A DNA stretch of 64,000 nucleotides, taken from assembly GCA_001972305.1 (NCBI GenBank), contig BDDD01000048.1, forward strand, positions 313,437 through 377,436. The letters are read 5' to 3'. Positions within the stretch are counted from its first letter, which is position 1, and each line of letters begins with the position of its first letter. This stretch comes from Cephalotus follicularis. Its lineage: Eukaryota; Streptophyta; Magnoliopsida; Oxalidales; Cephalotaceae. A model generated the notes under the pieces. The model was not told where the DNA came from and searched no databases. It worked only from the letters and a program-made list of their open reading frames with translations. Shown one piece after another: positions 3,304-64,000 of the stretch. The position numbers were made by a program, and so were the translations under genes.

Positions 3304-3844
3304 TGTTTATTTGTTTGAATGATTTGATTGATTGAATGTTTATTTGAAGTGAAGTTGATTTTTTTTTTCGTTTTTCTATTATTGTTCTTTTTTTTTACGA
3401 AACACGTTGACTTCTTTTCAAAACACATTGATGTAGTTTTGTAAAAACGTCGATCTCTTTATAAAACGTCGATGTTCTTTAAGTCTTTATAAAATACGTC
3501 GATCTCTCTAAATATACATCGATGCTTTTCAAAACGCAACGTTTTATTTCACATTGATGTTTTTAACTAAGTTTTTTTAAGAACACATCGATGCGTTTAA
3601 AATCACATCGACGTCTTTATCTCAGTCATCGAGTTCTACATAAAAACACATCGACTCTTTTATATTTTCATTTTATCTCTTTGGATATTTTCTCTATTTT
3701 TTTTTCTCTCTAAATTTTTTTCTAGTTATCAAAGCATCATCTACTCCATCCTTTGTCGTGATCAAGGTTTAGTGTCTTCCATCAATCTCTCTTTTTCCTT
3801 CCAATTTTTACACTTTCTGTTGTGCACTCAAACTGTTTGATAAA
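3304..3844 (+). promoter_or_regulatory. pol-ORF3 spacer carrying a TCGA-palindrome comb
   Basis: This non-coding spacer separates pol from ORF3. It is T-rich and holds about ten copies of an (A)CATCGATG/ACGTCGAT-like word between 3406 and 3655. Cores start near 3406, 3427, 3449, 3468, 3498, 3518, 3553, 3587, 3607, 3628 and 3650, mostly 19-22 bp apart. Pyrimidine-rich sequence follows just before the ORF3 ATG at 3845. The same word is the repeated motif of this element's own LTR, so the spacer may act as an internal promoter or enhancer for ORF3. That role is inference. Confidence 0.6.
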
Positions 3845-5200
3845 ATGACACATACAAAACGAGCTGGTAAAAAGAGGGTTGCTGGTCCCTCCAAGCAACC
3901 AAAACTTGCTTCTAAACGAAAACTCAATATTCAGGAACCATCTCCTGATCCCACTCTTGAATCGGATTCCGAATCCGAGGAAATCATTCCACTCCGGAAT
4001 GTTGTCTTTATTAACAAAAGAGTAATGGGTGGAAGAAATATTGACTTGTCGTTTTGCTCAAATGAGTTTTCTTTTGTCTCATGGCTTAAGAATTTGCACC
4101 TTCTTCCTTTGGTGCAAATTCAAGACATGTTCTATGTTAACCTAGTTAAAGAATTTTATATGAATTTGTGAATTGTCTCTAGTCCAAATGAGGAATTTGC
4201 TCTATCTTCTATTGTTAAAGGCCAAAGAATCTTACTATATTCTAGGATTCTTGCTTCAATTCTTCACATTCCTCACACCGGCTTGTATATTTTTGAATAC
4301 AAGAAGTGGCCGGAAGTTGAGGGATTTCATCCTAATGAAATTTTGTCAATTATGTACCCAAACGATCCAAATATTCACCCTAACATGGCTCTTCGTACAA
4401 ATAAGCTATCTGTTGATCATCGTCTCCTTCATTATCTTATTGTCCATCAGCTCCTCCCTACCGGTGGTGGGTATGCAAAACTTACTCGGATGCAAGCATT
4501 TTTAATGCGATGCATCATCTCCAAAATCGAATTTTGCTATCCCTTCCTTATGCTCCATACTATGGTCCGTGCCTTCACTCAAAAGAAATCGGTTCTTCCT
4601 TTTGGTTGCATTTTAACCAAAATCTTCCGTTACCATGAAGTTCATCTTGAGGGGGAGATTGGAACAAAATTAAAAAAGAAAGACACCTACAATAAAAGTA
4701 CGCTAAATCGGATGGGTTGGAAAAAACAAGAAGGGATTTAGACTTATTGTCCAAAAAGCGATCAAACTCAGCGAATAAATCGAGAGGAACAAGAAGAATT
4801 ACCTCCATGAGAAGCTCAAGAAACCGGTCAAGAAATTGCTCCTTCTCGTCCACGCTCTCATACTCATGGTTCCACCTCTACCTTGGAGTATGATAGTCTT
4901 GTCGAGTTTATGAGTTCTCGATTTGATGCACTGAATGTCCGGTTTGATTCTATGGAAGCATCTCTCGACGATAAGTTCAAGTCTCTCAATTCTCGACTTG
5001 ATCACTTGGCGAAGGATCACAAGACAATCCGTACAGATTTTGAGACTGTCGAAGACACAATCTACTATGATCTAAATGTCACCAAGAGAAGTCTCAAACG
5101 TCTAGAACGGAAGCTTGCTGAATAAAAATCTATTGACAAATGCGAGGAGACCTCTGGAGATGAATCCACTCATGATGATCTTCCTATTTCTGATTCTTGA
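3845..5200 (+). pseudogene. SIRE-type env-like ORF3, with internal stops
   Basis: One reading frame runs from the ATG at 3845 to about 5200, interrupted by stops at 4169-4171, about 4739, about 4808 and 5123-5125. The N-terminus is basic (TKRAGKKRVAG), followed by an acidic Ser/Glu patch (ESDSESEE). A middle domain (FVSWLKNLHLLPL, KEFYMNL, VDHRLLHYLIVHQLLP) resembles the plant retrotransposon ORF found downstream of pol in SIRE elements. The C-terminal part (4883-5125) is a likely coiled coil with heptad-like spacing (FDALNVRFDSMEASLDDKF). No signal peptide or clear membrane segment is visible, so 'env-like' is a positional name. Function is unknown. Confidence 0.72.
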
Positions 5201-5205
5201 TTGTA

Positions 5206-5555: not shown

Positions 5556-5678
5556 TGTTGACGTTTTAGTCTCAATCCTAGTTTTGATGATAACATATTT
5601 GCTTCTAACAATTCTACTTTATGTGAATGATACTTAAAAAAACTCACAAAAATGCAAAAAGACAGTTTCACATGAAAG

Positions 5679-6290
5679 ACATCGATGTCATTGAAGGAAG
5701 ACATCGATGCCTTTAAAGCACCAGCAGTTACAAGTAGTTATTCTTGAAAGACATCGATCTCATTCTAAAAAGACATCAACGTCTTCAGCCTCAAAAGTTA
5801 CAGGTTGATTTTCAACAAAGACATCGATCCCGTTCAGAAAGAGACATCGACGTCTTTATCCCATAAAGTTACAGGCTATTTTCATTCAAAGGCATCGATC
5901 TTTTTCAGTGAAGAAATCGACGGTTTTCATCAAAGACATCGATCCCTTCACAAAGACATCGATGTGTTTAATGCATCAAAGTTACAGGTTGTTTTTGAAC
6001 AAAGACATCGAGTATTTCCTACAATGACATCAACTCCAAAGTAAAAGACATCGATCCCTTTTCAAAGACATCGATGTGTTTTTCATGACTTCTATTTTTC
6101 CAGAAAAGACATCAACGCAGTTTGAAGACATCGATGTGTTGATCAAATCTTCAAAGCCTGGCCACAACTCCAGAAAATACATCGACGTCATTTATAGACA
6201 TCGACGTCTTCACACAAAATTACGCCCTGAATGCTAGCAACGGCTAGTTAACTGATGAAGACATCGACTCTTATCAAACGACATCAACGT
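5679..6290. repeat. paired ACATCGATGT comb in SIRE U3
   Basis: Twenty words of the form ACATCGATG, ACATCGACG or ACATCAACG occur in ten pairs. Start positions are 5679/5701, 5751/5773, 5821/5844, 5892/5914, 5936/5956, 6005/6027, 6048/6068, 6109/6128, 6179/6198 and 6261/6281. Spacing within a pair is 19-23 bp, and pairs recur about every 70 bp (some at 43-44). The best copies form the perfect palindrome GACATCGATGTC. Variants are mostly C-to-T or G-to-A at the central CpG. Confidence 0.85.
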
Positions 6291-6388
6291 CTTTACTCCA
6301 ACTGCTACATAACAGAGTTTATAGATTGTCATCAGTTTTTCATTTCAAAATCTCCATAATTTAAGCAATGGATACATGGATTGTTTGG

Positions 6389-6398
6389 CTATATAAAG
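6389..6398 (+). promoter_or_regulatory. TATA box of the SIRE-like LTR
   Basis: CTATATAAAG followed by GGAGGG is a strong plant TATA context and lies in the expected part of the LTR. The last palindromic word of the comb ends about 100 bp upstream. Confidence 0.72.
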
Positions 6399-6741
6399 GA
6401 GGGTCCAAGGCTTCAGAAAACATCAAGAAACAAAGTAATCAAGCAACCAAGCAAGCTACATTCTACAATACCAAAGTGTTCTTAAGCTTTTCCAAAAAGC
6501 CTCATAGCTTTACTTTCTGAGTTTCTTTGTAATTCTCTCTTGTTCTTTATTGTAAGCCAAACCTACTGAGAGGGTACATTGTAAACACATTGCAAACTTG
6601 TAAAAGAGGAGAGTGAATCCTCAAAAGGTCTTGAGGTCAAGATCAAGATATTGAGGTCAATCACAAAAACTGTGAGGTGTAACGAATTGCTTCCTTAATC
6701 AATTCGAGCTAGAGGAAACTCAAGGAGCTCCCTTGGGAAAA

Positions 6742-6780
6742 GTGGACGTAGGCAAGAGTTAGCCGAACCACTCTAAAAAC
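6742..6780 (+). promoter_or_regulatory. GTGGACGTAGGC...CCGAACCAC box
   Basis: This short block near the LTR 3' end reads GTGGACGTAGGC, a spacer, CCGAACCACT and then a short A-rich run. The same block occurs on the minus strand in both LTRs of the unrelated element G (about 52222-52275 and 59810-59862). I recall similar wording in other plant LTRs. Its role is not known to me. Confidence 0.6.
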
Positions 6781-7369
6781 AGAGAATCTTTCTATCCCTA
6801 CTCTCTTTACTTTAAAATTTTCTATTTGTTAGTATTTTTGTTAATATTCAATTCACCCCCCCTCTTGTATATTGCATGAAATTTTTTTTTTTATTTCACT
6901 TGACTTGAAGCATCGACGCCAAGGAGGCAAAATGTTGACGCGCAGAACATCCGGTCTAAAGCGCTGACAGAAAGGGTTAAAGCACTGACGCTGACAGGAC
7001 CTAAGTGTCGACGCCTAGAGTTAAGCGGCGAAGCTTAAGTGACTATTTTGGACATTAACGCCTATATGGTACACATTGACGTGAATAGAGCCTTGTTGCA
7101 TTATTGAGCATATGTTTGCATTTCTTATTGTCATGGATTGAAATCTATATAATTGCTAAAGTGTTTTATCATTTTAGACAATGGGACTTATGGTTTTATC
7201 ATAACCAGTATTTTGCACGAAATATTATGTTTCAACAGATTGAATATTGTTTCGAAATGACTGCTTACATTTTGAATAAATGTATTATTTTCAAGTATTT
7301 TATAACTTATAATCTACTTGGAAAATGATTGACTGAATTGATTGATGGATTGTGAAGGGAATTCTGTAT

Positions 7370-7620: not shown

Positions 7621-7621
7621 C

Positions 7622-7765: not shown

Positions 7766-7790
7766 CATTTGGCATAATTGCTTACATATT

Positions 7791-7821
<31 letters not shown>

Positions 7822-10479: not shown

Positions 10480-10874
10480 TGTATTCTTTTTATTGAGTTA
10501 ATTATTGTATTTTTATGCTTGGAACATATTACTTTGGTGGTGTTTGATTGACTTTCAGGTAAGAAACCAAAAGGAGCAAAATGCTGAAATACGAGTCAAA
10601 TTGGTGCAAATTGAGAGCAAGAATATCAAAGTGTGAAGAATTGGAAAATTTCTGCAGAAAAACAGAGCGTGGCATCAACGCCTAAATTTAAGCGTCGACG
10701 CCTACCTCTTAAGCGCTGACGGTTATAGGTTAAGCGTCGACGCTTTGTAACTGATGAAGAACAAATCTGCAGAATTATGATTTTTGTCAACACCAATCCA
10801 ATTGGCGTTAACGTGCTGGAAATTCACTATTTAGGTGTCAACGCCTTCAGCAAGACATCAACGCCATAAATGCA
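10480..10874 (+). repeat. Athila-type LTR C, 5' segment
   Basis: The LTR starts TGTATTC right after the purine tract. Text at 10496-10560 (TTTTTATGCTTGGAA, ACTTTGGTGGTGTTTGATTG, TTTCAGGTA) matches the start of solo LTR K (57058-57110), placing both in one family group. It carries GTCGAC-type cores at about 10674, 10694, 10715, 10736, 10786, 10807, 10837 and 10857. It continues at 27567 after element A; ATGCA (10870-10874) is repeated at 27567-27571. Confidence 0.78.
10672..10862. repeat. GCGTCGACGC comb in LTR C, left half
   Basis: Eight cores are spaced 20, 21, 21, 50, 21, 30 and 20 bp. Full copies read GCGTCGACGC; decayed ones read GCATCAACGC, GCGCTGACG, GCGTTAACG and GTGTCAACGC. The comb resumes after the element A insertion. 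Confidence 0.8.
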
Positions 10875-11248
10875 TGTCACGCCCCCGTTTTCCGAGAAGA
10901 CAACATTAAATCGGTAAGGCAATCAACACAACATAATTCAGCTTATGCGATAAAACGTATAAACAAAACCTTCAATAGCGGAAGCAATACATGAAGTAAG
11001 CTGAATTAAAATATGTATCACGCATCCCATACTATGTGATATCCAGTAAGTTTATATAAAACCCAACATCATAGTCGATCGCCCATAACGGAGCGTGATA
11101 AAACAGTACGAAACAAAATAAACCCAAGTTAAAAAAATCCAGTTTACATAGTCATTGTTCAGTAATCCAGTACATAAAATAAGAGAAACAACTTAGTCTT
11201 CTCTTTAAGTCTCCTTGCGTTCTCCATATGAAAACCCACTCCATCAAT

Positions 11249-12591
11249 CTGTTACAGTAGGGGGTTAGCCTTTGTCCTCACTCGGCTAAGTAGAAAAGTT
11301 TATGTATACAGTTTAAGGTCAAACGTAATGCGTATCATGAATGAATGCATAGTGATGCAGTATGACATGTAATTTCCACAGTAATTATGTCTCCGTATGT
11401 ACATATAAAAACATATGCATGTTCACAGTACAGGTATAACCTTATAAGGTTATATCAAACACAGGTAGTAAGTATGTCCCCAAAAGGAACCAGACAAGCA
11501 GGTCGTCATAACCGTCGCCACCTCCTGGCCCCAACGTCATGCACTCTTACCCCATCCCGTTTGCGAACGGTTTGGAGCAAGTCCTCCGTATGTTGCTTAG
11601 CACGGCGGCTAAACCAACAGCAGGTTACTAGCATAGCGGCTGAGTAATCAAGAGATTACAAACACAGTACAATACATGTCAAGCAACAAAATATGAATAC
11701 TTGATCAAAATATATTTGTTTAAAATATATTACCGATTATCAGGTTGTTATAAGTTGTAATGCTTAAAACAATGCATTTCTCCGTCTTTGGGAATACTCC
11801 CCCAGTCATTTGAAAATATAAGTTTACATTTGTCAAATATACATTTTCTTACCAAAATTGATTATAATAATCATGCAAGTTTTCCAACATGGTTAATACA
11901 TTCAGTAATCAACCAAAATCAATTTACAGTACAGTAGCAGTTCAAATGCAGGGCAAACATATGCTCAGAATGCACCTAGGGTTATGGGTATTTAACCTAG
12001 GCCTATCACCTTCTCTAAAGGTTTAATTTCTGTTATAACAGTCGGTTGTTTTTCCATAATAGTCGGCTGGATCCTTGAGTCAGTCGACTTGTTCATCACG
12101 AGTAATCAGTAGTCGACTGTCTTCCTTCGATAATCGACTGTTCTGGGCAAAAACGCATGCACAGTTGACTGTTCTTACTTGACAGTCGGCTGGATGATCG
12201 AGTAGTCGACTGTTTTACTTAAATAGTCGGTTGTTCTGGGCTGGACAGTACCAGTAATTCACCTCTAAATCCATTCAACAAGCGATTGAAACTTATCCAC
12301 ATGTATTCAGACCCCAGAATATTACCAGCAATCATATCCTGGGCTAAAACACAACTCAATTCATGCATTATTCTTCGTTTTCATTGTAACTCAAATGAAA
12401 TCCAAACATGGTATTGCATGAAAACCAACCCAAAACTCCATCCAAAATTCAGTGTGCATGTCAGGTTATTCAATAACAGTAACCACAACATTAATACAGA
12501 AATCCACAGCCAAACAACTACACCATTCATTTATAACACCATTACTCTTAACTCAAAATGCATGCATAGAATTCTCTACCGTTTCCCCTAC
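11249..12591 (-). other. putative intron in LTR A (left copy)
   Basis: On the element strand, AAAG|GTAGGGG gives a donor at 12591. GGCTAACCCCC-TACTGTAACAG|ATTGATG gives a branch-point-like CTAAC and an acceptor ending at 11249. The same pair recurs in LTRs B, D2 and F at comparable places (donor 0.7-1.2 kb in, acceptor 310-360 bp from the LTR 3' end). No transcript evidence is available. Confidence 0.4.
12040..12231. repeat. CAGTCGACTG comb 2 in LTR A (left copy)
   Basis: Cores start at 12041, 12062, 12083, 12112, 12133, 12164, 12185, 12205 and 12226. Gaps are 21, 21, 29, 21, 31, 21, 20 and 21 bp. Typical words are CAGTCGACTG, CAGTCGGCTG and CAGTTGACTG, joined by TGTT-rich linkers. Confidence 0.88.
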
Positions 12592-13068
12592 CTTTGATTT
12601 CAAGTTAGAAATCGGAAGTCCACCTCTTTGTGTCTCCTTTCCAATATCTTTGAGCCTCCCAGTAGCTCCAAGAACAGTCCAAAAGCTCCAATCCGTGCTC
12701 CAAGCATAACAATGGATAATCCTCTTAATTTCTCACTATCTTCTCTCCCAATTTCTCACTATCTTCTCTCTCAATTTCTCTGGTTCTTTCTTATCAGATT
12801 GCAGGGTGAGAGAGACGAAGGGAAGAGAGCATTTATGCAGTCCTCTCTCCCTCAACCCGATTGCATGGCACTAAGGGCCATTCTCTCCCATTTTCACATG
12901 CATGCACACACACTTGTCATTCTTTCTCTTCCCCTCTGTCCTTGCAGGTCCTGGTGTGGTGGAGCATGCTCAACACGTCTTATTGCAAGTGATGGCTTCT
13001 GAAGATGCTCTTCCCATGTTAGTTTGCATGTGATTTCCCCATTTGTCACAAAAAACAGAGCACGAACC

Positions 13069-13216
13069 AGTCGGCTGCCCTTCCCTGGCAGTTGGCTGTT
13101 CACCTGGAAGTCTGTTGCCAAGTGTCACGACAGTTGGCCAGTCGGCTGGTTCCTCACGCCAGTCGACTGCCCCACACTTCAGCCCAACAGTCGGCTGGTA
13201 TATCGCACCAGTCGTC
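13069..13216. repeat. CAGTCGACTG comb 1 in LTR A (left copy)
   Basis: Cores lie at 13070, 13091, 13133, 13141, 13162, 13190 and 13211. The intervals 13070-13091, 13141-13162 and 13190-13211 are exactly 21 bp. This comb lies 170-310 bp inside the element-strand start of the LTR. Confidence 0.85.
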
Positions 13217-13382
13217 TGTCCAAGCCAAAATTCCAACAATTATACTTAGAATCACACTTGTAAATGCTCTAAGTTAATTTAAATTCAAGATATCAACCAG
13301 GGATTTCACCTTTTATTAATTCAAGGTAAAAACTACATCGAGGGTTACAATAATACATGAAATCGAATTTGCGGGCGTTACA

Positions 13383-13397
13383 ATCCCCCCTCCTTCA
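13383..13397 (-). other. element A polypurine tract
   Basis: On the element strand this reads GAAGGAGGGGGGAT directly before the LTR start TGTAACGCC. Upstream is the chromovirus-typical phrase CGAGGACGAATTTCTT. It primes plus-strand DNA synthesis in this family. Confidence 0.85.
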
Positions 13398-13425
13398 AAG
13401 AAATTCGTCCTCGAATGTACATATA

Positions 13426-17515: not shown

Positions 17516-17576
17516 AGGGAAATGTCTCCCTCACTTCATCCTTAAAGAAAATTCGTCCTCGAATTTAGCCCTTACA

Positions 17577-41333: not shown

Positions 41334-41338
41334 CCTAT

Positions 41339-48023: not shown

Positions 48024-49030
48024 AGAAACACATACAAGCAAGGGATTCGCGACATCCACATGCCGAAAAGAAATGAAGTGTACGACACTACACAATCAAT
48101 TCTCATACATATAATATCATATCATATCATATAACTAGAATCGATCCATACGCCCCTATCACAAATAACGTATCCATAATCCTCCACATAGGTTATCATA
48201 ACATAGAGAGACGCCATGGACTAATCACAACGCCATGGAAGTGTCATGTCCCCATGCCAAGCCTACGACATGCCTATGGTGCGCCCCATAGGTGGGTACA
48301 AAAACGCAGTACTTCACCATTTCGAAAACATTGATTTTATCATAGTCAATTTAAAACACATAAATGGTTTTCCGAAACATATCCATAAATTGTTATCAAA
48401 CGATATTATTTCATATAACACATACTTTCATAATCGAAAATCAACTCATTTATTTTCACAATAAATAGATGATCGCATAACATTTCATAAACATATCACA
48501 GCTAAATTTAAAAAGTCGGAATATTTATCTCATAAAATATCAAACTGGCTTTATTTTCAAAACATATCAAAACCCAAACATAATAGAGTTCGAGTATCAT
48601 AAATGTGAAACTGAATTGTTTCGAACAAAATCATATTAAGATAGCAAAAGAATGATAGAATCCGTAACTTATGCGATCACAGAATAATTTACGAATTGAC
48701 TGATAATTAATAATTGCCCCTCGTAGCACAAAAATCTAAAAGTTCAAATTAGGGTCTGAAAAATCATTGTGGGCATAAATCAGAATTATAACGGTGTTTT
48801 GAACCGACCTCCATTAATTAGAAGAGCAAACTGACAAACAAATTTGAAAACAGAAATTTCCTGGACTCACCAGCCGACAGAAGTAGGACTCCAGTCGACT
48901 GTTGGAAGCTTGGCAGTCGACTACCCAACATGGCCAACCGACTACCTAAACAAAACTACAGCCAGTCGGCTGGAATAGGGGTCCAGTCAACTGTGCAAGG
49001 CATAGCACTCAATTGATCAGACAGACAGCC
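48024..49030 (-). repeat. E2 5' LTR, second segment
   Basis: Continues the LTR after D2 and matches 32826-33063 plus 41339-42110. It carries the start of the AGTCGACT comb (about 48872-49030). It breaks off at CAGCC (49026-49030), where F starts. Confidence 0.83.
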
Positions 49031-51450
49031 TGTCACCCCCCATTCTAATTTACCATTAATTAAACATGGTTATCAGTTAATCCAGCATTTATTAAAATCC
49101 AATAAAAATGTAAACCTTAGCGGAAGCAATCATTCATACTAGATTATATAAAAGTATCCGCATGCAGCCCATACTACATGCATACCAAATCCTATACCAG
49201 TCATAAATTACATATCAGCAATGTAAATATAACTTAACAGAGTTTGACTTTATTACAATATTCGATAACGTTACAACTTAACAACCTCGAAATAAGAAGC
49301 CTCCAAGCATAGCTGCAATAGCACGTGCAATCCTTCAATTGAATCTGTAATTGTAGGTGTTAGCCGTTGTCCTCACTTGGCTAAGTAGGAAATATGCATG
49401 AGAATGAACATAAGAATGTAATCATGCATGGCAATTATATCATTAAACACTAAGTATATATATATTGAATACATATAAGCAATCATGCCAAATGGCTACA
49501 ATCAATCACTTTCAAGAATACCGCTCAAGGGTACAATCAATCACTACACTAGGCGGGTGTCATCTAGTGCTACCTCCTAGCTCAACCGATACACCACCTG
49601 ACTACCACCATGCACTCCGATGTGATAAACTAGGTAAACACTTATTGCCGGCACTTGGCGGGCAATACACTCACTGTCTGTAATACAGATAAGTTTGGTG
49701 AATAAGCTAGAGCCAACTCCTAGCACATCCGCTCACCTCCGTAGTCAGCGGCATACTCCGTGCCACTAGACAATTGGAAACACTTCAATCACAATCAATC
49801 ACTGAAATTACATATATATAATATGTAAAATAACACTAGTTTTCTTTGAGAAAACGGTAAACACTTTCACTTAAATTCTCTTTTGAGGAAACAATAAAAC
49901 ACTTCAATGGATGTGCCTCACGTGGAGGAAATGGTAAAAACACTTCACTAGGTTTCCCTTTTGAGGAAACAACAATACACATAGTTTTCTTTAAAAGCAG
50001 TAATAGAAAACCTTGACCATGCATATAGCATCAATAGGTAAATCACTTGAAATAATTTGATAGATATTTAATATCTATAACAATATATCACTTTCAATAA
50101 TATGCAATCACTCAATCAATACAATCATTGGTGGTTCCAGGAATCCAACCACATAAATGCAAGCAAACATATGCTCAGAATGTAAAACAGTCACTATTGG
50201 CGTCGACGTGTATCTTAGGCGTCAAAGTGCACTTATGCGTCAACGTTTATCTTAGGCATTAACGTCATCTATGCGTCACTCTTTACCCACGAGTGTTAAC
50301 ACATTAAGGAAGGACCTTAGGCGTCAACGTTCAATATTGGCGTCGACGCGTTAAGGTAGGAACCTTAAGCGTCAACGTCGTCCTTTTAGGCATCGATGTC
50401 CTGGGAAAACCAGTAGGTACTTAGGCGTCGACGTAAATCATCCTAACCGTACGAAACATCAACTATTTCCAGTTATAGCGTTAACGTCAACCACTTAGGC
50501 GTTGACGAAAACCAACCTATCCGTACAAAATACCGCCTATTCCACTAAAGGCGTTAAGGTAAATCACTTAGGCGTCGACATGAATTGAACGCAGAAGGAC
50601 AATCAGTTAACAATCATTTCAATCACGCATGGATTTAACACTTGGAATCAACATGCAAGCACTCACAATCACCATAACACAATATACATGCAATATTTTC
50701 ATAAACATGTCATAAACCCTACTACCTACCTTTGATTCCAAGTTAGGAATCCAAAGTCCACTTCTTTAAGCTTTAATCCGATCCTCAGCTTCTCCAAGCC
50801 TCAAGATCCAGTTCGATCACACCACTTCCGAGTTCCAAGATCTGGTCCTCAACTTCTTCACCTGGCACAAAAATGGTGGAACAATAACGCTCTCACTCAC
50901 TCTCTCTTTCACTGGTGTGAGGTTCGGAGAAAAGGAGAGGAGCTTTAATGGAGTCACTCCTCCCTCTCCTTCCTCATGGCAGGTGACAAGACCTCCATCA
51001 ATCACTTCTCTCCTTTATTTTCATCAGTGAAGAGCATGGGGAAGTGCAAAATCTCGCACTTTTGTCCCTCACGCGTCTTCTATCCTTCCTTTAACATATT
51101 CTACCGACACTTTAGGCGTCAACATCAACGCTAGGAGTCGACGCGTTGACTCCATGTTTGGCGTTAACAAGCTCTCACTTAGTCGCGTTAACGCCTAATT
51201 CCTTTTTGTTCACCAGCAATGGACATTAACGTCCTCGCATGGCGTCAACGCCTTAAGGAAAGAAGCCTTAAGCGCGTTTCAGTATTACTCGGCGTCGACG
51301 CTGATTCCTTTACATTAAACACTCAATCTTCCTTCAATGCCCATAACAATAAGCTAATTAAAAGGACAATTAGGAAAGAATCTCATATCAATGTATAACT
51401 TTATTCGGGAATCATACAATATACATGGAATTGAAATTGCGGTCATTACA
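49031..51450 (-). repeat. element F 3' LTR
   Basis: 2,420 bp from TGTCACCCCCC to GTCATTACA. The element strand shows a first comb 150-350 bp in (about 51110-51300), a second at about 50201-50590, a donor-like AAAG|GTAGGTAG at 50729, and an acceptor-like TTACAG ending at 49345 next to the TTAGCC...GGCTAA box (about 49359-49382). Family F is closest to B in this window. Confidence 0.87.
50200..50590. repeat. GCGTCGACGC comb in LTR F
   Basis: Cores occur near 50202, 50221, 50239, 50258, 50275, 50295, 50323, 50342, 50371 and 50392, and more to about 50580. Gaps are 17-21 or 28-29 bp. Words include GCGTCGACG, GCGTCAACG, GCATTAACG and GCATCGATG. Spacing is shorter on average than in A, B or E. Confidence 0.75.
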
Positions 51451-51909
51451 TTCCCCCTTCCTTATAGAAAACTCGTCCCCAAATTTAGCTTTACATCCCA
51501 AACAAGTAAGGGAAGGTCTCTATCATATCAGCTTCACGTTCCCATGTAGCTTCTTCAGCCCCGTGAAACTTCCACAATACCTTCACAATAGGAATAGTCT
51601 TATTCCTTAAAACTTTCTACTTCCTGTCCAGAATCTTCACTGGCCATTCTTCGTATGACAGGTCATCACTAATAAAACCAGGGTCATAGTTAAATATGCG
51701 AGAGGGATCAGGCACGTATTTCCGTAGCATGGAAACATGGAATATGTTGTGTACATTCGACAAGTTGGGCGGCAACGCTATCTGGTATGCAACTTCCCCA
51801 ACTCTGTCCAGTATCTCATACGGCCCAATATACCGTGGAGCTAGTTTCCCTTTCATGCCAAACCTGCATATACCTTTCAAAGGCGAGATTCTCAAAAACA
51901 CATGATCTC
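51451..51909 (-). pseudogene. element F integrase end and chromodomain
   Basis: After the purine tract (element strand AAGGAAGGGGGAAT, about 51451-51464), pol text reads back from FPYLFGM through a chromodomain (VKILDRK, a stop at about 51617, VLRNKTI) and the GPYEILDRVGEVAYQIALP block to DHVFLRISPLKG. There element G interrupts at 51909. It is very similar to the matching part of B. The remainder of F must lie right of the window. Confidence 0.85.
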
Positions 51910-52779
51910 TGCAACAACCCGCTCCCAAAACCCGAGCCGTTACAGAAAACTGGGATGACTTTAACCATAACCCATGGCACAAACTGGTCATATAAACTTC
52001 CTTCTCTCATCTTCTCCTTCATTTTTTTTCTTCTCTTCCCAGCACATCACAAGAGCAGAGGACTGGACATCCACCTGCACCTCGGCTACCCACTGCAGCA
52101 AGGTCTTGCCGCCACGCGTCAAGGTCTTGCCTATCCTCTTCCTCCACGGCAGAGGACCAGACCTACAACAACTTGGATAAAGCATTCATGGATTCACACA
52201 TACATGATAAAGGAAAGAGTAGAATTAGATAGTCATTTTTATAGTGGTTCGGCACAGAATTTGCCTACGTCCACTTCCTCAATCATCCATGAGGTTCCAC
52301 TAGTATGAAGTTCATTACATACAGAGTTACATAGCTTATCAAATATTGAGAATGAAAGGATAGCCACGCGGGCCATACATAGTTGAGAAGCCGCACCAGA
52401 CTTCATTCATTCAAGGGAGCTATGCCAAACCAGAAGCCACTACTCAACAAAACCCGAGGAGAGCATCCCAAGGATGTATTATAAAAAGTAGCAGGGGACT
52501 TCATCGAGCAGAGAAACCCAACTCACCGTTTCATTAAATCCTCAACACTGTCTTCCAAAAGATGCACCGTATCAGTTAGACCCGAGGAGAGCACGCGTGT
52601 TCTACATGTGATAACTTAACACTGTCTTCCAAGACACCAACACGGACCATGTCACTTAGACACAAGGAGAGCACCCTCGTGTTCTACACGTGATCACGTA
52701 ACATCCTCGTCTAAGGTTAGAGGAAACACATCCTCCACAGACCTTCTCCTCTGGACCCTTGATCACCACCTCTGCAATA

Positions 52780-53100
52780 TGCCAGACGAGGACCTCTGCA
52801 ACATGTCAGACGACGACCTCTGCAACATGTCAGACCACAACGCCAGACCACTAGTACTGCAAAGTATCGGACCACAAGCCAGACCACAACCTCTGCAAGG
52901 TATCAGACAACAAGCTAGACCACAACCTCTGCAAGTTGCAAGACAACAAGCCAGACCATAACCTCTGCAAGGTGCCAGACCACAACCTCTGCACAAGCCA
53001 AATCACAAACTCTGCAAGGTGCCAGACCACAAGCCAAACCACCACCACTGCCTGCCCAGACAACAAGCCAGACCGCAAGCACTGCCTGCCCAGGAGCTCG
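52780..53100. repeat. ACCTCTGCAAGGTGCCAGACC array in LTR G
   Basis: About ten diverged units of roughly 27-33 bp share CACAACCTCTGCAAGG and CCAGACCACAAGC. A matching array lies in the right LTR at 60350-60690. Both reading directions give spurious repeat proteins. Confidence 0.8.
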
Positions 53101-53404
53101 GCACTTCAAGGGTACGCACCCCTGCGACGTAGTTCGGCAAGTTTTGCATGTCTACCTTTAGGCATCATCCACAACAGCAAGATGTAGAATGCCACAACAA
53201 TTCCACTACCTGCCCGCAGAGAAGCCATGGACACCTACTCACTACAGAGCACCAGACCATCCACAGAACAACAGCCCTTCCAGGGATATCAAACCATCCA
53301 CAGATGTCAACCCACTCCCAGCACCAGACCAGGTAGCCCGAGGAGATTCACGCTCGAGAAGGCATCTTTAACAAAACACCAGAGAAGCCACTTCGCTCAG
53401 TCAA

Positions 53405-53695
53405 CGCCCGAGGAGACCACCATACAAGCAATGCCCGGGGAGACCACCACACCAGCAAATGACCGATGAGACCATCACACTAGCAATGCCTGAGGAGACC
53501 ATCACACTAGCAATGCCCGAGGAGACCACCACATAAGCAAATGCCCGAGGAGACCATCACACTAGCAAATGCCCGAGGAGACCATCACACTAGCAAATGC
53601 CCAAGGAGACCATCACACTAGCAATGCCCGAGGAGACCATCACACTAGCAATGCCCAAGGAGACCGCCACACAAGCAATGCCCGAGTAGAACATC
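53405..53695. repeat. 27-28-bp GCCCGAGGAGACCATCACAC array in LTR G
   Basis: About eleven units of GCCCGAGGAGACCATCACAC followed by TAGCAAT or TAGCAAAT lie in tandem. The right LTR has about ten (61008-61285). Unit order and variants differ between the two, so the arrays have changed since insertion. Confidence 0.85.
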
Positions 53696-55328
53696 CCACT
53701 AGAATTGCCCGAGCACAAGGAACGACAACGTTTAATATAAGCTAAGCCTGGGATCAACACAAAGGCCCGTGGACAAACACCAAGAATGGGACAACTACCC
53801 GAGGTCCCTCCAACACTCAACTTACACTAAGGAGATGAAATTTCACCCTGGCCCACTACCCAAGGGATCCACCAAGGCTCACCCGAAAAAAATCTTCAGG
53901 GACCAAGCTGGTCCGAGGTCAGGAGGACGGGCAAAACTAAGGAAAACTTCTTACTTTCACACTTCCATAGTCGGGACCACCTCGGAAAGCCCAAATAACA
54001 ACTCCGTTGAAGATCCATTAACATGGTCATGGGCTAAAGGACTGTACACATCCCTCATATACACATATATATACCCACTTATAGAGCACTGCATGAACAT
54101 CGACAGAAGGGCTACGCGAGCACTCCTTCCTCGACAATCACATGTTTAGCGCACCTCAATACATGAACATCGATCGAGGGGCTACGCAAGCCCACCCCCG
54201 TCGGCAATCACGAGCTCAGCACTACACTATATGAACATCGATCGAGGATCTACCTCGTCGGCAATCCTGTAGCATTAGTATCGTCCAAGGAGCCCGCGAA
54301 TCACCGCTCAACGCTACCCTTGACGAGATGACAGAGCAGAACATCGGCTCAGAGGTAAGTGTATTACCACTTAGATCATCTCGGGCCGGCAATCTCATGC
54401 CTGAAGACTCCATTATGACCATAACAAATGTATTCGTCACATAAGATCTGAGGAGCCTCATCTGCCCAGAATATAAATGCTAAAACACAAACTCACAAAA
54501 CACCTCAACACAAAATGGTTAAGTTAGTATAACCATAAACGAAACAACAGTAAAACGTCACATACCTGGGTCTCTCAACACCAGCTCCTGCAACGCTTAC
54601 CAGTTCCTTGGAACTCCGAATCCACCATACCACAGGATTCTTCATATTCCCAGAACTCGAACAGCCCACCTAGAGCTTTGGATCTACCAACGGATCCATG
54701 TTTCGCCATCTCAGTTGTCAAACACACCAGGGATACCAACTTTCTGCTCAGTGTACTGAGAAACTCCGAATCCACCATACCACACTTGGGTAAGGATATC
54801 AAAGACCAGTGAGAATCACCTTCAACCATGTTTAACTACAGAAGAAATGGAGAAGAAGAGGAACAAGTCTTGTAGAGGAGATGCTTAGTCACGCCAGCAG
54901 TAAGGATCCAACGAAGAGGAAACTTGAACCTCACAGGGAGTACTCACAACTCACCCAGATAGAGTTCACTCCGTCTTCCCTTTTCTTCCTTCTTCTTCTT
55001 CCTACCTACTTCTCACAGACTTCTTCTCTGCTTCGCACTAACTTCTTCTCTACTTCCCCCTAACTTCTGCCCAAGGCGCCAGATATATCACTCCAAACAC
55101 TCTCCCTGACACACGTCTTTTCACCTTGGAAAATGTTAGCTTCCCTTGTAAGCTTCACTTATGGGCTTAGTCAAAATAAATGACTCTTCCCAATAACGCC
55201 AATTTGGGCATTAATATTGCATAATAGAGGACTCCGAAATGGCTCAAGGAAAATAATAAAACCCAAACCAGGCCTTCACAAACAGATGACAAAGAGAATC
55301 CTCTACAAAACTGTACCTGGGTAATACA

Positions 55329-57013: not shown

Positions 57014-57220
57014 TGTTTAGCATAAAAATGTGTTGTTTTTAATGCATTATTTATGATATTTTTATGCTTGGAATAGACTACTTTGGTTGTGTTTCAATGA
57101 TTTTCAGGTACAAGTGTTTAATCACCAAAGTGCAAGAATACTACCCTAAAGTGTGCAAAATTGGAGCTTGAAGTGTAAAGATTGAAGAAGAGCAAAATTC
57201 TGCAGAAAACAGACCAAAGA

Positions 57221-57560
57221 AGTCGACTCCTTTCAAAAGAAGTCGATGTCTTTTCTGGGTTTACAATAAAGTCGACGTCTTTCAAGAAGAAGTCGATGTC
57301 TTTTCTGGAAAAAATGCAACAATCTTCAAGGAGCTATGAAAAAGAAGTCGACGTCTTTCAAGAAGAAGTCGACGCCTTTCATACAGATCGATGTCTTTCA
57401 CACAACACATCGATGTCTTTTAACAAAATTGGTCTGTAGCTTTTGGAGCAAAAGAAGTCGACGCCTTTCAAGAAGAAGTCGACACCTTTCTCTCACATCT
57501 CAGCAAAGTCGCGATTTTTACACAAAGAAGTCGACTCCTTTCCTAAAGAGGTCGACGCCT
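57221..57560. repeat. paired AAGTCGACGYCTTT comb in solo LTR K
   Basis: Six pairs start at 57221/57241, 57270/57291, 57346/57367, 57386/57407, 57456/57477 and 57529/57550. Spacing within pairs is 20 or 21 bp and between pairs 40-76 bp. Words are AAGTCGAC(G/T)(T/C)CTTT and CATCGATGTCTTT. The layout is the same as in the SIRE-like LTR. Confidence 0.9.
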
Positions 57561-57647: not shown

Positions 57648-57658
57648 TCTATAAATAT
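57648..57658 (+). promoter_or_regulatory. TATA box of solo LTR K
   Basis: TCTATAAATAT in plant TATA context, 96 bp downstream of the last comb core. Confidence 0.7.
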
Positions 57659-57981
57659 GCTATTTCGGCAGAAACAAGTAGTGTGTAAAAGAAGTGTAGA
57701 GGCAACCCTAATTTCTTTTCATCAATTTAGTTTTCTTTAACAATGTTTAGTAGCTAAACCTTTTCAAGGTTTTAGGGAAGAACAAGCCTAGATTGTTATT
57801 GTTTCAATTCCATCAATAAAAATCCTTGAATATTTGATTTGTTCTTCAATATTTCTGCCTTCGCACACACTTTGTCTGTCTGATTAAAATCCACAAACAT
57901 CTTGTCGGTGAAGCTGAAAGTTGGCGAATAAATGGTGCTTAATTCAACGGAGTCTACTCATACGATTTGTCGCTACGAACA

Positions 57982-58614
57982 CACTTCGTATAGACCTAGC
58001 ATGACTACTCATACGTCTTGTCTGATTAAAATCCACACTTCGTATAGACCTAGCATGACTACTCATACGTCTTGTCTGATTAAAATCCACACTTCGTATA
58101 GACCTAGCATGACTACTCATACGTCTTGTCTGATTAAAATCCACACTTCGTATAGACCTAGCATGACTACTCATACGTCTTGTCTGATTAAAATCCACAC
58201 TTCGTATAGACCTAGCATGACTACTCATACGTCTTGTCTGATTAAAATCCACACTTCGTATAGACCTAGCATGACTACTCATACGTCTTGTCTGATTAAA
58301 ATCCACACTTCGTATAGACCTAGCATGACTACTCATACGTCTTGTCTGATTAAAATCCACACTTCGTATAGACCTAGCATGACTACTCATACGTCTTGTC
58401 TGATTAAAATCCACACTTCGTATAGACCTAGCATGACTACTCATACGTCTTGTCTGATTAAAATCCACACTTCGTATAGACCTAGCATGACTACTCATAC
58501 GTCTTGTCTGATTAAAATCCACACTTCGTATAGACCTAGCATGACTACTCATACGTCTTGTCTGATTAAAATCCACACTTCGTATAGACCTAGCATGACT
58601 ACTCATACGTCTTG
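57982..58614. repeat. 54-bp tandem array, eleven identical units plus a partial
   Basis: The unit begins CACTTCGTATAGACCTAGC and repeats every 54 bp from 57982. Eleven full units appear identical and a twelfth, from 58576, is cut short at about 58614. Partial diverged copies flank it: 57953-57980 (CTACTCATACGATTTGTC) upstream and 58625-58650 (CTCCGTATAGACCTAGC) downstream. A seed for another part of the unit (GTCTGATTAAAATCCAC) is at 57877-57893. The identity implies very recent expansion or an assembly artefact. Since 54 is a multiple of three and the unit lacks stops, long frames are open on both strands. Confidence 0.95.
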
Positions 58615-59013
58615 TCATCACCGCCGCACTCCGTATAGACCTAGCTCTCGTTGTTTATCAAGGTATGATCGTTCAACTCTATGGAATTGTTCAATACAAT
58701 CTACGGTGAGTTTCTATACCCTAAAACCGTTTCTTTATTATATTTTCTCTTCACTTTTATTTATTGCATGCTTTATTTCTTAGTATTTTGAATTCAACGT
58801 TTTTTAATTATCAAGCTTTAATTTCTTGGTTTGTTTATTTCTTTTATTTTGCATAATTAGGAGTAGTTTTTGATAGTTTATCTTCAAAATTGGTATACTT
58901 CGCCTAGGTTGGATAAATTATAACTAGTTTACGTTTCCCTGCGTTCGACCCATTACTGCATGATCCGTGCACTTGCGGCTATAAATTTTAAAACATTCTT
59001 TTAACAGTGAACA

Positions 59014-59496: not shown

Positions 59497-61898
59497 TGTA
59501 ACGACCCGGTCCTGAAACCCGAGCTATTACAGAAAATTGGGATGACTTTAACCATAACCCATGACACAAACTGGTCATATAAACTTCCTTCTCTCATCTT
59601 CTCCTTCATATTTTTTTCTTCTCTTCCCAACACATCACGAGAGCAGAGGAATTGACGTCCACCTGCACCTTGGCTACCCACTGCAGTGGACTGGCGCCAT
59701 GCGCCAAGGTCTTGCCTATCCTCTTCCTCCACGGCAGAGGACTATACCTACAACAACTTGGATAAAGTATTAGTGCATTCACACATACATGATAAAGGAA
59801 AGAGTAGAATGAGACAGTCATTTTTATAGTGGTTCGGCACCGAATTTGCCTACGTCCACTTCCTCAATTATCCATGAGGCTCCACTAGTATGAAGTTCAT
59901 TACATACATAGCTTAGAAAATACTGAGAATGAAAGTATAGCCATGCAAGCCATACATAGTAGAGAAGCCGCACCAGACTTCATTCATTCAAGGGAGCTAT
60001 GACAAACTAGAAGCCACTACTCAACAAAAACCAAAGAGAGCACCCCAAGGATGTATTATAAAAAGGAGTGGGGAACTTTATCGAGCGGAGAACCCCAACT
60101 CACCGTTTCACTAAATCCTCAAGACTGTCTTCCAAAACATGCACCGTATCACTTAGACCCAAGGATAGCACCCACGTGTTCAACATGTGATCACTTAACA
60201 TTGTCTTCCAAGACACCAACACGCACCGTGTCACTTAGACCCGAGGAGAGCACCCTCGTGTTCTACACGTGATCACTTAAAATCTTTGTCTAAGGTAAGA
60301 GGAAACACATCCTCCACAGACCTTCTCGTCTGGACCCTTGATCACCACCTCCGCAATATGCCAGACGAGGACCTCTGCAACATGTCAGACGATGACCTCT
60401 GCAACATGTCAAACCACAACACAAGACCATAAGTACGGTAAGGTGCCGGACCACAAGCCATACCACAACCTCTACAAGTTACTGGAAAACAAGCTAGACC
60501 ACAACCTCTGCAAGGTGCCAGACAACAAGCCAAACCATAACCTCTGCAAGGTGCCAGACCATAAGGTAGACCACAACCTCTGCAAGGTTCCAGACCACAA
60601 GCCAGACCACAACCTCTACATGGTGCCAGACCATAAGCCAGACCACAACCATTGTCTGCCCAGACAACAAGCCAAACCACAACCACTGCCTGCCCAGGAG
60701 CTCGACACTTCAAGGGTACGCACCCCTGCGACGTAGTTCGACAAGTTTGGCTTGTCTACCTTCAGGCATCATCCACAACAGCAAGATGTAGAATGCCACA
60801 ACAATTCCACTACCTGCCCGCAGAGAAGCCATGCACACTTGCTCACTACAGAGCACCAGACCATCCACGGAACAACAGCCCTTCCACGGATATCAAACCA
60901 TCCACAGATGCAACCCACTCCTAGCACCAGACCAGGTAGCTCGAGGAGATTCACGCCCGAGAAGGCATCTTCAACAAAACACCAGATAAGCCACTTTGCT
61001 AAGTCAACGCCCGAGGAGACCACCATACAAGCAATGCCCGGGGAGACCACCACACTAGCAAATGCCCGGGGAGACCATCACACTAGCAATGCCCGAGGAG
61101 ACCATCACACTAGCAATGCCCGATGAGCCACCACACAAGCAAATGCCCAAGGAGACCATCATATTAGCAAATGCCCGAGGAGACCATCAAACTAGCAATG
61201 CCCGAGGAGACCATCACACTAGCAATGCCCGAGGAGACGATCACACTAGCAATGCCCTAGGAGACCATCACACTAGCAATGCCCGAGCATAAGGAACAAC
61301 AACCTTTAACATAAGTTAAGCTTGGGATCAACACAAAGGCCCGGGGACAAACGCCAAGCATGGGACAACTACCCGAGGTCCCTCCAACACTCAACTTACA
61401 CTAAGGAGATGAAATCTCACCCTGACCCACTACCCAAGGGATCCACCAGGGCTCACCTGAGAAAACATCTTCAGGGACCGAGCTGGTCAGAGGTCGGGAG
61501 GACGGGCAAAACTAAGGAAAACTTCTCACTCTCACACTTCGATAGCCAGAACCACCTCGGCAAGCACAAATAACAACTCCATTGAAGATCCATCAACATG
61601 GTCATGGGCTACAGGACTGTACACATCCCTCATATACGCATATAAATACCCACTTGCAGAGCACTGCCTGAACATCGAACAGAAGGCCTACGCGAGCACT
61701 CCTTCCTCGACAATAACACATTTGCGCACCTCACTACATGAACATCGATCGATAGGCTACGCAAGCCTATCCCCGTCGGCAATCACGAGCTCATCACTAC
61801 ACCGTATGAACATCGATTGAGGAGCTACCTCATCGACAATCATGTAGCGTTAGTATCGTCCAAGGGGCCCGCGAATCACTGCTCAGCTCTACCATTGA
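59497..61898 (-). repeat. element G right LTR, broken by H
   Basis: Starts TGTAACGACCCGG and follows the left LTR through the GTGGACGTAGGC block (about 59810-59862), both tandem arrays (60350-60690 and 61008-61285) and the ATCGATCGA repeats (about 61670-61820). Element H enters after 61898; the remaining ~1 kb should follow H outside the window. Confidence 0.85.
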
Positions 61899-64000
61899 TG
61901 TAACGCCTGGAATTTTATAAATAATTATTTTAATATTGGCACAGTGTATGGCCGTATTGAGCCGATGGAGCCCGAATCGATAAAAAGCATCTCGTATTAG
62001 AACTACAAATCATAAGGCCCAAAATGACTAATAAGATCCATTTTTAAGGCGCGACAATAAGGCTCTATGTTCGCATTTTTATTGCAATTATTTTTGTACC
62101 CGTTCGGATAATTAATATCACCGTTTGAGGATTAAATGGGACCCATGCCTTAGTATTTTGGATGGTAAATACTAAAGAAGAGGAAAAAGTTAAAGGGAGG
62201 AGGACATGAGACACGGGCGCATAAGGCGCCCGTGCAAAGAACAGAACTAGGGGACTCGGGAGAGAGACGCAAGAGAGAGAGACCAATGGGAGATAAAGGG
62301 GGAGAGGGAGAGCTCAACGCTGGAGAAGTCGACGGCGCCGGACCAGGAGCTCACCGGTCAGAGCCTCTACTACCGATGGTAAGCCTCATTCCTTCTTGTC
62401 TTCTCTTTTCTTCCTTTTCTTCTCGATTTCTTCTCCCCGATGCCGTCACTGTCGGGCATTGCCGAACGTTCCACCACCGGTAATCACCGCGGGTGGGTCG
62501 AGTCTTCACCTATGAGGCCGGCTACACCTATTTCTGTGGCTGATTTGGCGCCATTCGGCCTGAAACAGCGGGATTTGAACTGACGATTCGACCTAGTGAG
62601 CTGACCCACTGTCGCCTTTGACTGCACATTTGGCACCAAGTCTCAGTGAGTTAAAGGCATGGATGTGTTGATATGATGATTATGATGCGTCTTATGGTGG
62701 TAGCCAGAGTTGTGGATGACCGACGAGTCAACTCAGTGAGTTGAACTCACTGGCCGGCCGTGACAGCGCGTTTCACAGTGAGTCATGGTGAGCCTCTGAT
62801 GGTTTTGAACATATCGTCCAATGTGGAACTTGTTTTTGGGTTTCGCCGAAGCTGAATGAGTTGGCCAGAAACTGGCCAAAGCTCCAATGGCAGCTGTGTT
62901 TGGTTTCCGTGCGTAGAGTGTCACAGAAATGTGTTGTGTATGCAGGATAAAGGAATCAATCAAGGATAAACTAGACGATCAAGGATAGAGGATTTCTGAG
63001 GTTTACGAGCTCAGTTGCTAAGAGGTAGGTTATACTATTGCTTGCATTGCATTCATGCATTCTAAATGATTATTTGGATTGATATGTGTACGAATTGTAC
63101 TTATATGGATGCATGATTGTATAAATATATATGAGTATGTGGATGGATATGTATACTGCATATGGCATATGATATAAGGGTTCGATGTTGAATTAAGAGG
63201 AGATGTATTCTTGCCTTCTCTCATTTCACAGGCCATGGGATGAATCTTAAAAAGGGCTTTGAACCATTTTGGACATAGTTCCATTGGTTTACGAACTCTT
63301 TCACAAACTACATTTTCTATCAAAACTGTCGACGCTTTATGCTTTCAAAACCAAACCCGTCGACGCTTTCATGTCTTAAACTGAGTAGTTGATGTTTTAT
63401 ATTTATGCTTTTTAAAACCGTCAACACTTTTATGAGTTAAACTTAACAGTCGATGCCTTATGCTTTAAAACAAACCGTTGATGCTTTATACTTGTGCCTT
63501 TTAAAACTGTTGATGCCCGGGGCTAAGCATCGACGCTTAGTGCCCTATTCAGTCCAAACACACCGTTTTACATGGTTTTCTATCCAAAATGGTTTTAACT
63601 TCAACCGGATTCCATAGAAAGCCTCCCTAAGGCTTTGTAACCTATGGAAATCCTTATATATCACTTTTGATTTCTAAATCGATGTTCAAGTGAAGTTTTA
63701 AGGAAAGTTCTCAATAAAAGAGTTTTACACAAATGGTTTCTAAATGGTTTTCAAAATGGTCAGGATAGTTCCATTGGGATATCGAGACGCGGATATCTTT
63801 TTTGGACTTCCTCTCCATTGTTTTATGGATTTTAGAATGGTCAGGTACTTCCATTGGAACATCTGGGTGCGGATACTCCCATTTGGACTTCCTTTCATTC
63901 ATTATAGCTTCGATAGGTACTAACCAAAAGATATATGAAAAATTGATTACAAAATGGGTTATGGACACAAAAATGGCCATTGAATATGAAACAAAATGAC
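61899..64000 (+). mobile_element. gypsy-like LTR H, incomplete at the window end
   Basis: Starts TGTAACGCCTGG inside LTR G. The form and orientation fit a 5' LTR or solo LTR. It includes an inverted GGGCGC-ATAA-GGCGCC motif at about 62216-62232, a donor-like AGAG|GTAGGTTA at 63025 and a comb of GTCGACGC words with ~30-bp spacing (63328-63535). No coding region is seen in the 2.1 kb available. Confidence 0.72.
63327..63535. repeat. GTCGACGC comb in LTR H, about 30-bp phase
   Basis: Cores at 63328, 63359, 63389, 63420, 63449, 63477, 63509 and 63529. Gaps are 31, 30, 31, 29, 28, 32 and 20 bp. Words are GTCGACGC, GTTGATG, GTCAACAC and GTCGATGC with the linker TTTATGCTTTNAAAAC. The step is about three helical turns. 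Confidence 0.85.

Follow-up and report, generated by a model that had tools for sequence, protein, structure and literature searches.

A shared core and spacing grammar of palindromic arrays in copia and gypsy-type long terminal repeats of Cephalotus follicularis

We analysed a window of 64,000 nucleotides from the genome of the plant Cephalotus follicularis (positions 313437-377436 of contig BDDD01000048.1, C48 in our numbering; the assembly comprises 1,577,397,061 bases in 9,746 contigs). The window is made up of nested long terminal repeat (LTR) retrotransposons, here designated by letters (Table 1), whose LTRs carry combs, that is, arrays of short imperfect palindromes (teeth) centred on TCGA. 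A preliminary description of the window had claimed a TCGA core, a step of 20-22 bp that puts all cores on one face of the DNA, and a distribution over about ten different families. We found that the combs follow a grammar in which the core RTCGAY (R, purine; Y, pyrimidine) recurs at steps of 20-22 bp, in runs linked by spacers near 28 or 32 bp. As read from its letters, the tooth is a dyad: its core is fixed, whereas its arms are interchangeable and vary with the family. The preference for this step and core across unrelated elements of one genome is the most surprising part. We consider it probable that the combs are homotypic cis-regulatory arrays, carried by LTRs of several lineages, at which a sequence-specific protein, or one of a small protein family, binds DNA as a dimer; that they are protein-binding regulatory arrays in the general sense is likely, and we hold this with greater confidence.

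Patterns were counted in the whole genome on each strand; the counts are lower bounds, and because matches overlap inside a comb, combs are fewer than matches. As a control, each word was read backwards, and the control count is given in brackets. Three TCGA at steps of 18-22 bp occurred 115,887 times (16,032). Three RTCGAY at steps of 20-22 bp occurred 92,646 times in the 1.58-Gb genome (441 for the reversed word YAGCTR), compared with 23 (13) at 16-18 bp and 98 (7) at 24-26 bp, and YTCGAR at 20-22 bp gave 27 (3,370). The preference for step and core is about thousandfold. A step of 20-22 bp followed by one of 27-29 bp was found 15,616 and 15,465 times on the two strands (57 and 51), and followed by one of 31-33 bp 17,387 and 17,325 times (72 and 77). 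Judged by eye from the approximately 100 rows listed per count, the step near 28 bp occurs mostly with CAGTCGACTG arms and that near 32 bp mostly with other arms. The periodicity of TCGA described previously is confirmed, on a larger scale than stated, but the true core is RTCGAY; steps of 20-22 bp are strongly preferred, and gaps of 27-29 and 31-33 bp are also common. Because these longer steps are frequent, a rule of two helical turns only was dropped, and the placement of all cores on one face, which would apply within 20-22-bp runs, fails at the frequent 27-29-bp steps. The comb pattern was also searched for in viral contigs (1 stretch) and in genome contigs (63 stretches, with bacterial or archaeal titles), where nothing was plant-like by title. 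In the bacterial contigs L006, L008, L014, L019, L021 and L035, AGTCGACT-type matches stand at 63-bp steps and are perhaps coding repeats.

The periodicity is equally visible in the window. The three TCGA runs singled out in the preliminary description are present (starting at 17145, 34491 and 41944); the first two are as clean as was stated, while the third is less so, with gaps that include 28 and 42 bp. In a comparison with 200 dinucleotide shuffles, the 262 TCGA of the window form 41 pairs 20-22 bp apart, a clear excess over the shuffles (mean 1.39, maximum 7). The most 20-22-periodic of all 256 tetramers are GTCG, CGAC, AGTC, TCGA, GACT and CAGT, and all six are pieces of CAGTCGACTG, which itself occurs exactly at 18 sites (0.03 expected from base composition) and with up to two mismatches at 93 (17.8 expected). 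For a class-specific set, 129 teeth were collected in 16 arrays, one LTR per pair, with motifs and thresholds chosen by eye for each class. In this set 55 of the 113 gaps measure 20-22 bp, against a mean of 11.0 and a maximum of 20 in 300 random placements, and no gap measures 24-26 or 36-40 bp. A genome sample was taken from 20 places of 10 kb at fixed positions (19,839 of its 200,000 bases are N). Here TCGA tops the 16 self-complementary tetramers by the ratio of 20-22-bp excess (45 vs. 6.9), and among all 256 tetramers GTCG ranks first and TCGA fourth.

The core was examined by comparing comb TCGAs, defined as those with another TCGA 20-22 bp away, with isolated ones. RTCGAY accounts for 75/85 comb TCGAs but 182/534 isolated ones in the genome sample (Fisher 1e-21), and for 66/68 and 80/194, respectively, in the window (Fisher 3e-18). 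Around the core, the arms are of three main kinds: CAG..CTG in class I, GACA..TGTC in class II (the SIRE-like copia element; those of LTR K are AAAGAA..GTCTTT-like), and AAGCG..CGCTT-like in class III. The dyad symmetry of the teeth is seen in the consensus arms of each comb and in an arm-pairing test on 84 of the 100 rows listed from the TCGA genome count, with 1,000 shuffles. The second and third bases outside the core pair within the tooth at 0.73 and 0.52 (shuffle maxima 0.56 and 0.42), the fourth merely equals its shuffle maximum (0.51), and bases five to seven give no signal. The first arm base is a purine on the left in 84/84 and a pyrimidine on the right in 80/84, without covariation. 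A version of the test with shuffling inside each comb was set aside as uninformative, because each comb is nearly uniform. Substitutions were counted in 47 class I teeth in element orientation, with two 7-of-10 matches that are out of register (22675 and 42179) excluded; T4C was found 12 times, only in A, B and D, and A7G 6 times, only in E and F. The otherwise palindromic class I site thus shows a family-specific polarity.

To see how teeth change, we compared related LTRs. Tooth, linker and flank identities were computed with gap columns set aside; they come from one family pair (E and F), and the alignment may favour tooth-to-tooth matches. Between E2 and F1 the teeth (83/100) are better conserved than the linkers (63/105) and the flank (360/566), with p 0.0004 and 0.0001; the values for E1 and F1 are 81/100, 61/105 and 360/566. 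E1 and E2 agree at 103/110 tooth, 113/116 linker and 557/581 flank positions. Between F1 and the decayed F2, teeth (66/90) are worse conserved than flank (490/554), as is expected of CpG-rich sites after silencing, and for E1 against F2 the teeth (64/90) are not above the flank (378/555). Teeth would thus decay fast when unselected, yet E and F1 keep them better than linkers, which supports selection without proving it. The length of the arrays changes by whole units: the two LTRs of E, and likewise those of A, differ by exactly one tooth plus linker, and in E it is the comb of the 5' LTR (E2) that has one 22-bp unit beyond E1.

In two LTR pairs the flanks are homologous but the teeth are of different kinds. 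The alignment of LTR B with LTR G covers one side of the comb (49117-49853) and only 46 bp on the other (50677-50722), and does not extend across the comb; the teeth between these flanks belong to class I in B and to class III in G. In LTR C and LTR K, 130 of 182 bp match (71%) in a stretch that ends about 10 bp ahead of the first tooth; past it, the teeth are of class III in C and of a separate kind in K. Core and step are constant in both comparisons and the arms differ, which may have come about by change of the arms in place or by replacement of the module. As to the claim of about ten different families, the comb does occur in both copia and gypsy-type LTRs, but E is a relative of F, B and G have LTR flanks in common, and for C and K this applies to one side.

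The SIRE-like LTR, K, C and B also agree in the position of the comb. TATAWA lies 98-106 bp past the last tooth in 4/11 combs tested (99 bp in B; the other three in Table 1), where random placement gives a mean of 0.29 (p 1e-4); C and K, which have a flank in common, are not fully independent here. The combs are rich in CpG, with an observed/expected ratio of 1.15 against 0.63 in the rest of the window. The word CCCAGAA occurs nine times beside teeth in combs, at 1.65/kb compared with 0.15 elsewhere in the window (both LTR copies counted). In either orientation (CCCAGAA/TTCTGGG) this word, about 11 times denser there, stands beside teeth and within long spacers in several comb classes, and it was also met in several rows listed for the pattern of 20-22 then 31-33 bp; it is a possible second cis-element.

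The idea that the teeth are repeated sites for a sequence-specific, dyad-binding protein gains from these data, with the near-invariant core, the family-specific palindromic arms, the roughly thousandfold step preference and the conservation of teeth between E and F1 all pointing to it. The core, dyad arms, spacing, genome scale, gain and loss of units, E/F1 conservation, differing teeth at homologous flanks and, for four combs, the position ahead of TATA are read from the DNA directly; protein binding, cooperativity and promoter activation at the combs are what we infer from them. Each tooth would be one dyad site at which both subunits of a dimer read the RTCGAY core, and the arms would decide which member of the protein family binds. 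Within runs, the 20-22-bp steps, equal to two helical turns, would bring adjacent dimers to the same side, where they could cooperate, and spacers near 28 or 32 bp would link the runs. The arrays would grow and shrink by whole units of tooth and linker, while turnover of the arms would give different teeth to LTRs with homologous flanks. Our best candidate for the binder is a host bZIP able to take a TCGA core, as FD and the F-group zinc-deficiency bZIPs are reported to do, but we put forward the bZIP identity tentatively. According to the accessible text, FD recognises motifs containing ACGT or TCGA, GTCGAC among them (PMC13360168), and the F-group site, a 10-bp imperfect palindrome, was searched for with a TCGA core (PMC5656896). 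These bZIP sites resemble the teeth in being palindromes, in part imperfect, with TCGA or GTCGAC at the centre; they differ in their arms, and the accessible text of PMC5656896 and PMC13360168 describes them as one or few sites in host promoters rather than combs. We entertain, as a doubtful extension, that a single comb grammar for dimer binding arose by convergence in copia and gypsy-type lineages or passed between them; its arms would evolve in concert within each family and may address different members of one protein family, either host activators or element-encoded anti-silencers.

Several observations weigh against a dimer-binding array of this kind. The consensus octamer of the F-group bZIPs (zinc-deficiency response element) is TGTCGACA. 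It occurs in 0/85 comb teeth of the sample and 0/68 of the window, and because of this absence F-group bZIPs as such do not fit and were rejected. The reversed word YAGCTR also favours the 20-22-bp step (441 vs. 7 and 13), at 1/200 of the level of RTCGAY, and a step of about 28 bp does not fit the helical phase. The one-sided substitutions of class I suit a directional reader of GYCGAC better than a symmetric dimer. Between E2 and the decayed F2, the teeth (64/90) show no advantage over the flank (376/555; p 0.63) and little over the linkers (57/99; p 0.07). TATAWA at the distance given above is missing from 7/11 window combs, and of 15 distinct combs from other parts of the genome just 2 have it 85-117 bp away in either orientation; a last tooth about 100 bp before TATA was consequently dropped as a general rule. 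Location in U3 is putative for the combs of A_a, E, F, D, G, H and J.

Among other explanations, the one that survives best, though unlikely in our judgement, is common descent with slippage: an ancestral, minisatellite-like array of 21 bp would have spread among LTRs by inheritance and recombination, and its spacing would need no function. The preliminary description had dismissed common descent on the ground that linkers differ between families. This is not supported, because the linkers of E and F align, and several CAGTCGACTG combs share a CCCAGAA lead and a gap fingerprint. The fingerprint (21,21,21,28/29 or 49) is common to the combs A_a, E and F and to the genome loci L076, L077 and L088, which suggests one ancestral class I comb, and the gain and loss of whole units between LTR pairs agrees with slippage as well. 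What it leaves unexplained are the dyad arms, the enrichment of RTCGAY in combs and the better conservation of teeth than linkers between E and F1; moreover, the arms vary by class while RTCGAY and the step persist, and the LTR of the SIRE-like element has no match to the other LTRs in a blastn self-comparison of the window (hits of at least 150 bp, E <1e-15).

A second possibility is that the teeth are RYCGAC elements for the cold and drought factors of the AP2/ERF kind (CBF/DREB), which would make the retrotransposons stress-responsive. RYCGAC, listed as CBFHV among the DRE/CRT motifs (PMC7570135, accessible text), is found on one strand in 37/47 class I teeth and 10/12 K teeth, the class I substitutions favour GCCGAC (T4C 12, A7G 6), and the published Sirevirus motifs mainly yielded stress-factor sites (Bousios et al. 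2010, PMC2829016, text as accessible). On the other hand, RYCGAC is present in just 5/19 teeth of the SIRE-like LTR, where 10/19 are ATCGAT and contain no CGAC, and in 5/11 teeth of the comb before the env-like frame, and such a reader does not require dyad arms. We regard this explanation as quite unlikely.

Improbable, in our view, is a third account in which each family encodes its own anti-silencing or transcription protein and reads its own teeth, by analogy with the VANC proteins of VANDAL transposons. VANC targets are short tandem-repeated motifs in non-coding DNA that vary between related elements, such as YAGTATTAY and AGTTGTCC/AC, and their binder is element-encoded (PMC5735166, in its accessible part). 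Comb motifs likewise differ between related elements (B/G and C/K), and they are alike inside each family while varying between LTRs whose flanks are homologous, as with the VANC targets of that paper; the SIRE-like element also has an extra open reading frame (ORF; PF20167) behind its second comb. The VANC motifs, in contrast, are not palindromes of the comb kind, and an element-encoded binder is established for VANC only. The core common to copia and gypsy-type LTRs indicates one protein family. In 13 frames of the window scanned with Pfam, retrotransposon domains and PF20167 were the only matches, and published Sireviruses without ENV still carry LTR motifs (PMC2829016, accessible text). 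The weakest account acts at the RNA level, with palindromes near the transcript 3' end folding or pairing and feeding small-RNA silencing or RNA dimerisation; five combs do fold strongly (z -8.1, -8.9, -4.8, -5.5 and -7.0) and small RNAs are overrepresented on the palindromic regions of Sireviruses in maize (Bousios 2016, as given in the accessible text of PMC10760457). However, any repeated palindrome folds strongly, and pairing would need no RTCGAY core and no preference for 20-22-bp steps over those of 24-26 bp, which are nearly absent, so that we consider this account very improbable.

Of known systems, the repeated motifs of Sireviruses are the closest to the combs, a precedent that the preliminary description does not mention. 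In the accessible text of PMC2829016 (Bousios et al. 2010), these are palindromes present in 8-32 copies in the LTRs of 13 Sireviruses, upstream of the TATA box, with extra copies before ENV; they form CpG islands, are absent from the other Ty1/copia elements compared, and bear a CGG-CCG signature in 12 of the 13 published motifs, the exception being Tnd-1. Two of the 13 have an RTCGAY centre, that of Vitis (CGGTCGACCG) and that of Tnd-1 (ACAATCGATTGT). The combs are likewise palindromic and CpG-rich, and reach at least eight copies in the SIRE-like LTR (19 teeth), E (11-12), K (12), A_a (9-10), G (10) and F1 (8-9), with fewer in B (6) and D (4); the SIRE-like element also has an extra comb before its env-like ORF, with no TATAWA in the next 1,200 bp. 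The position before TATA is matched by the SIRE-like, K, C and B combs, not by the other seven of 11 nor by 13/15 elsewhere. Differences are the RTCGAY core without the CGG-CCG signature, as in the exception Tnd-1, the strict 20-22-bp steps, and the occurrence in Ty3/gypsy-type LTRs. The copia element appears to be a further, new member of the Sirevirus kind. A, B and E are not counted as members, though they look alike in design; A and B are excluded because they are of Ty3/gypsy type by domain. What is new is that Ty3/gypsy-type LTRs carry this Sirevirus-like palindrome design, with a strict step and core. In its accessible text, PMC2829016 reports no examination of gypsy elements for such motifs and gives no spacing rule, and the literature surveyed, which included PMC2829016, PMC5735166, PMC10760457, PMC7570135, PMC5656896, PMC13360168, PMC8282616 and PMC11656987 in accessible part (subscription papers being mostly outside it), mentions neither Ty3/gypsy LTR combs nor a 20-22-bp rule. 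Another point of comparison is offered by the symmetric U3 activators. Like the combs, they are symmetric repeats in LTRs, and they act in cis, as the combs would. An example, Tnt1 box I, is named in the accessible text of PMC2829016.

The locations of the combs are given in Table 1. Activators of the Tnt1 box I type belong to one family each and have few copies, and we know of no core common to different superfamilies among them. Identity between paired LTRs is 95.6% in A, 96.5% in B, 93.9% in E, 88.2% in F (41334-42103 and 48273-49030) and 89.0% in an LTR-like pair at 51910-54323 and 59497-61898. The copia element has a single LTR in view; its domains in the Pfam scan are RVT_2 and PF20167, the latter (env-like/Transposase_32) in the ORF at 4172-4741, and the label SIRE-like refers to this layout of an extra env-like ORF with a comb ahead of it and to the naming in the preliminary description. 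Its reverse transcriptase is at most 75% identical to the 120 matches listed of 7,996, of which the named ones are nearly all from eudicots. Pfam domains are SH3_Tf2-1, chromodomain, Ty3_capsid and RVP_2 in A, SH3_Tf2-1, Integrase_H2C2, Retrotrans_gag and Ty3_capsid in B, and gag, RVP_2 (protease) and integrase only in E. A gag search gave 6 matches, the top-scoring one 56% identical, and searches of viral contigs with the B integrase and the SIRE-like reverse transcriptase confirmed no relative. LTR pieces of E and F are 67-70% identical, and C, G, H, J and K are termed LTRs by homology, TATA boxes or the preliminary description, not by paired ends. Downstream of the TATA box of LTR K there is a 54-bp tandem array (57954-58645; 13 overlapping 300-base copies at 54-bp steps) with an open frame on both strands, and the LTR-like pair contains arrays of 36 bp and 27-28 bp at 52780-53090, 53380-53720, 60360-60700 and 60980-61310.

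Table 1. Combs and the SIRE-like LTR in the window (positions of the 64,000-nucleotide stretch; a point means strand not assigned)
Feature	Position	Strand	Remarks
Class II comb, ACRTCGAYGT teeth (11)	3407-3660	+	SIRE-like copia, between pol end and env-like/Transposase_32 ORF
LTR of SIRE-like copia element	5557-6880	+	Ends approximate, by eye; RVT_2 upstream
Class II comb, GACATCGATGTC-like, 19 teeth	5678-6291	+	SIRE-like LTR; last tooth 106 bp ahead of TATATAA at 6390
Class III comb, AAGCGTCGACGCTT-like, LTR C part one	10655-10870	+	Element A interrupts C
Class III comb, LTR C continued	27610-27795	+	Last tooth 103 bp ahead of TATAAAAA at 27887
Class I comb A_a, 3' LTR of chromovirus A (11094-13384)	12039-12233	-	
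Class I comb A_b, 3' LTR of A	13068-13218	-	
Class I comb A_a, 5' LTR of A (25259-27568)	26202-26417	-	One unit longer than 3' copy
Class I comb A_b, 5' LTR of A	27252-27402	-	
Class I comb, 3' LTR of B (15953-17518), six teeth	17145-17257	-	Gaps 20,21,21,21,20
Class I comb, 5' LTR of B (20344-21909)	21536-21648	-	
Class I comb D	22698-22776	.	In sequence breaking the RT (reverse transcriptase) frame of A; putative insertion
Class I comb, 3' LTR of E (33064-35652), eleven teeth (one 7-of-10 match)	34491-34716	-	Gaps 20-22 and one of 28
Class I comb, 5' LTR of E (38558-41150), twelve teeth incl. 7-of-10 matches	39966-40213	-	One 22-bp unit beyond partner LTR
Class I comb, LTR copy F1	41944-42150	-	Gaps 21,22,21,28,21,22,20,42
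Class I comb, LTR copy F2	48871-49015	-	Decayed
Class II/III-like comb J	31953-32215	.	
Class III comb H, cluster one	45436-45576	.	
Class III comb H, cluster two	46384-46785	.	Three teeth, 237-bp break, four teeth
Class III comb, LTR G	50199-50580	-	Flanks homologous to LTR B
Further class III teeth	51115-51305	-	Between G comb and stretch resembling B integrase gene (51459-51907)
Comb of LTR K, AAAGAAGTCGACGTCTTT-like, 12 teeth	57219-57560	+	Last tooth 98 bp ahead of TATAAATA at 57650

Three-tooth matches, which overlap, amount to one per 17 kb of the 1.58-Gb genome and occur in copia and gypsy-type LTRs alike, so that the combs would represent regulatory sites in very large number. If a single protein family reads the grammar, one factor could switch elements by the thousand, with the combs as ready-made enhancers across the genome. 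Through the combs, the role of the Sirevirus palindromes becomes directly testable, and B/G and C/K, with homologous flanks and different teeth, are natural swap experiments. Should the grammar indeed be shared between copia and gypsy-type lineages through convergence or exchange, it would be a key to which elements escape silencing, and when.

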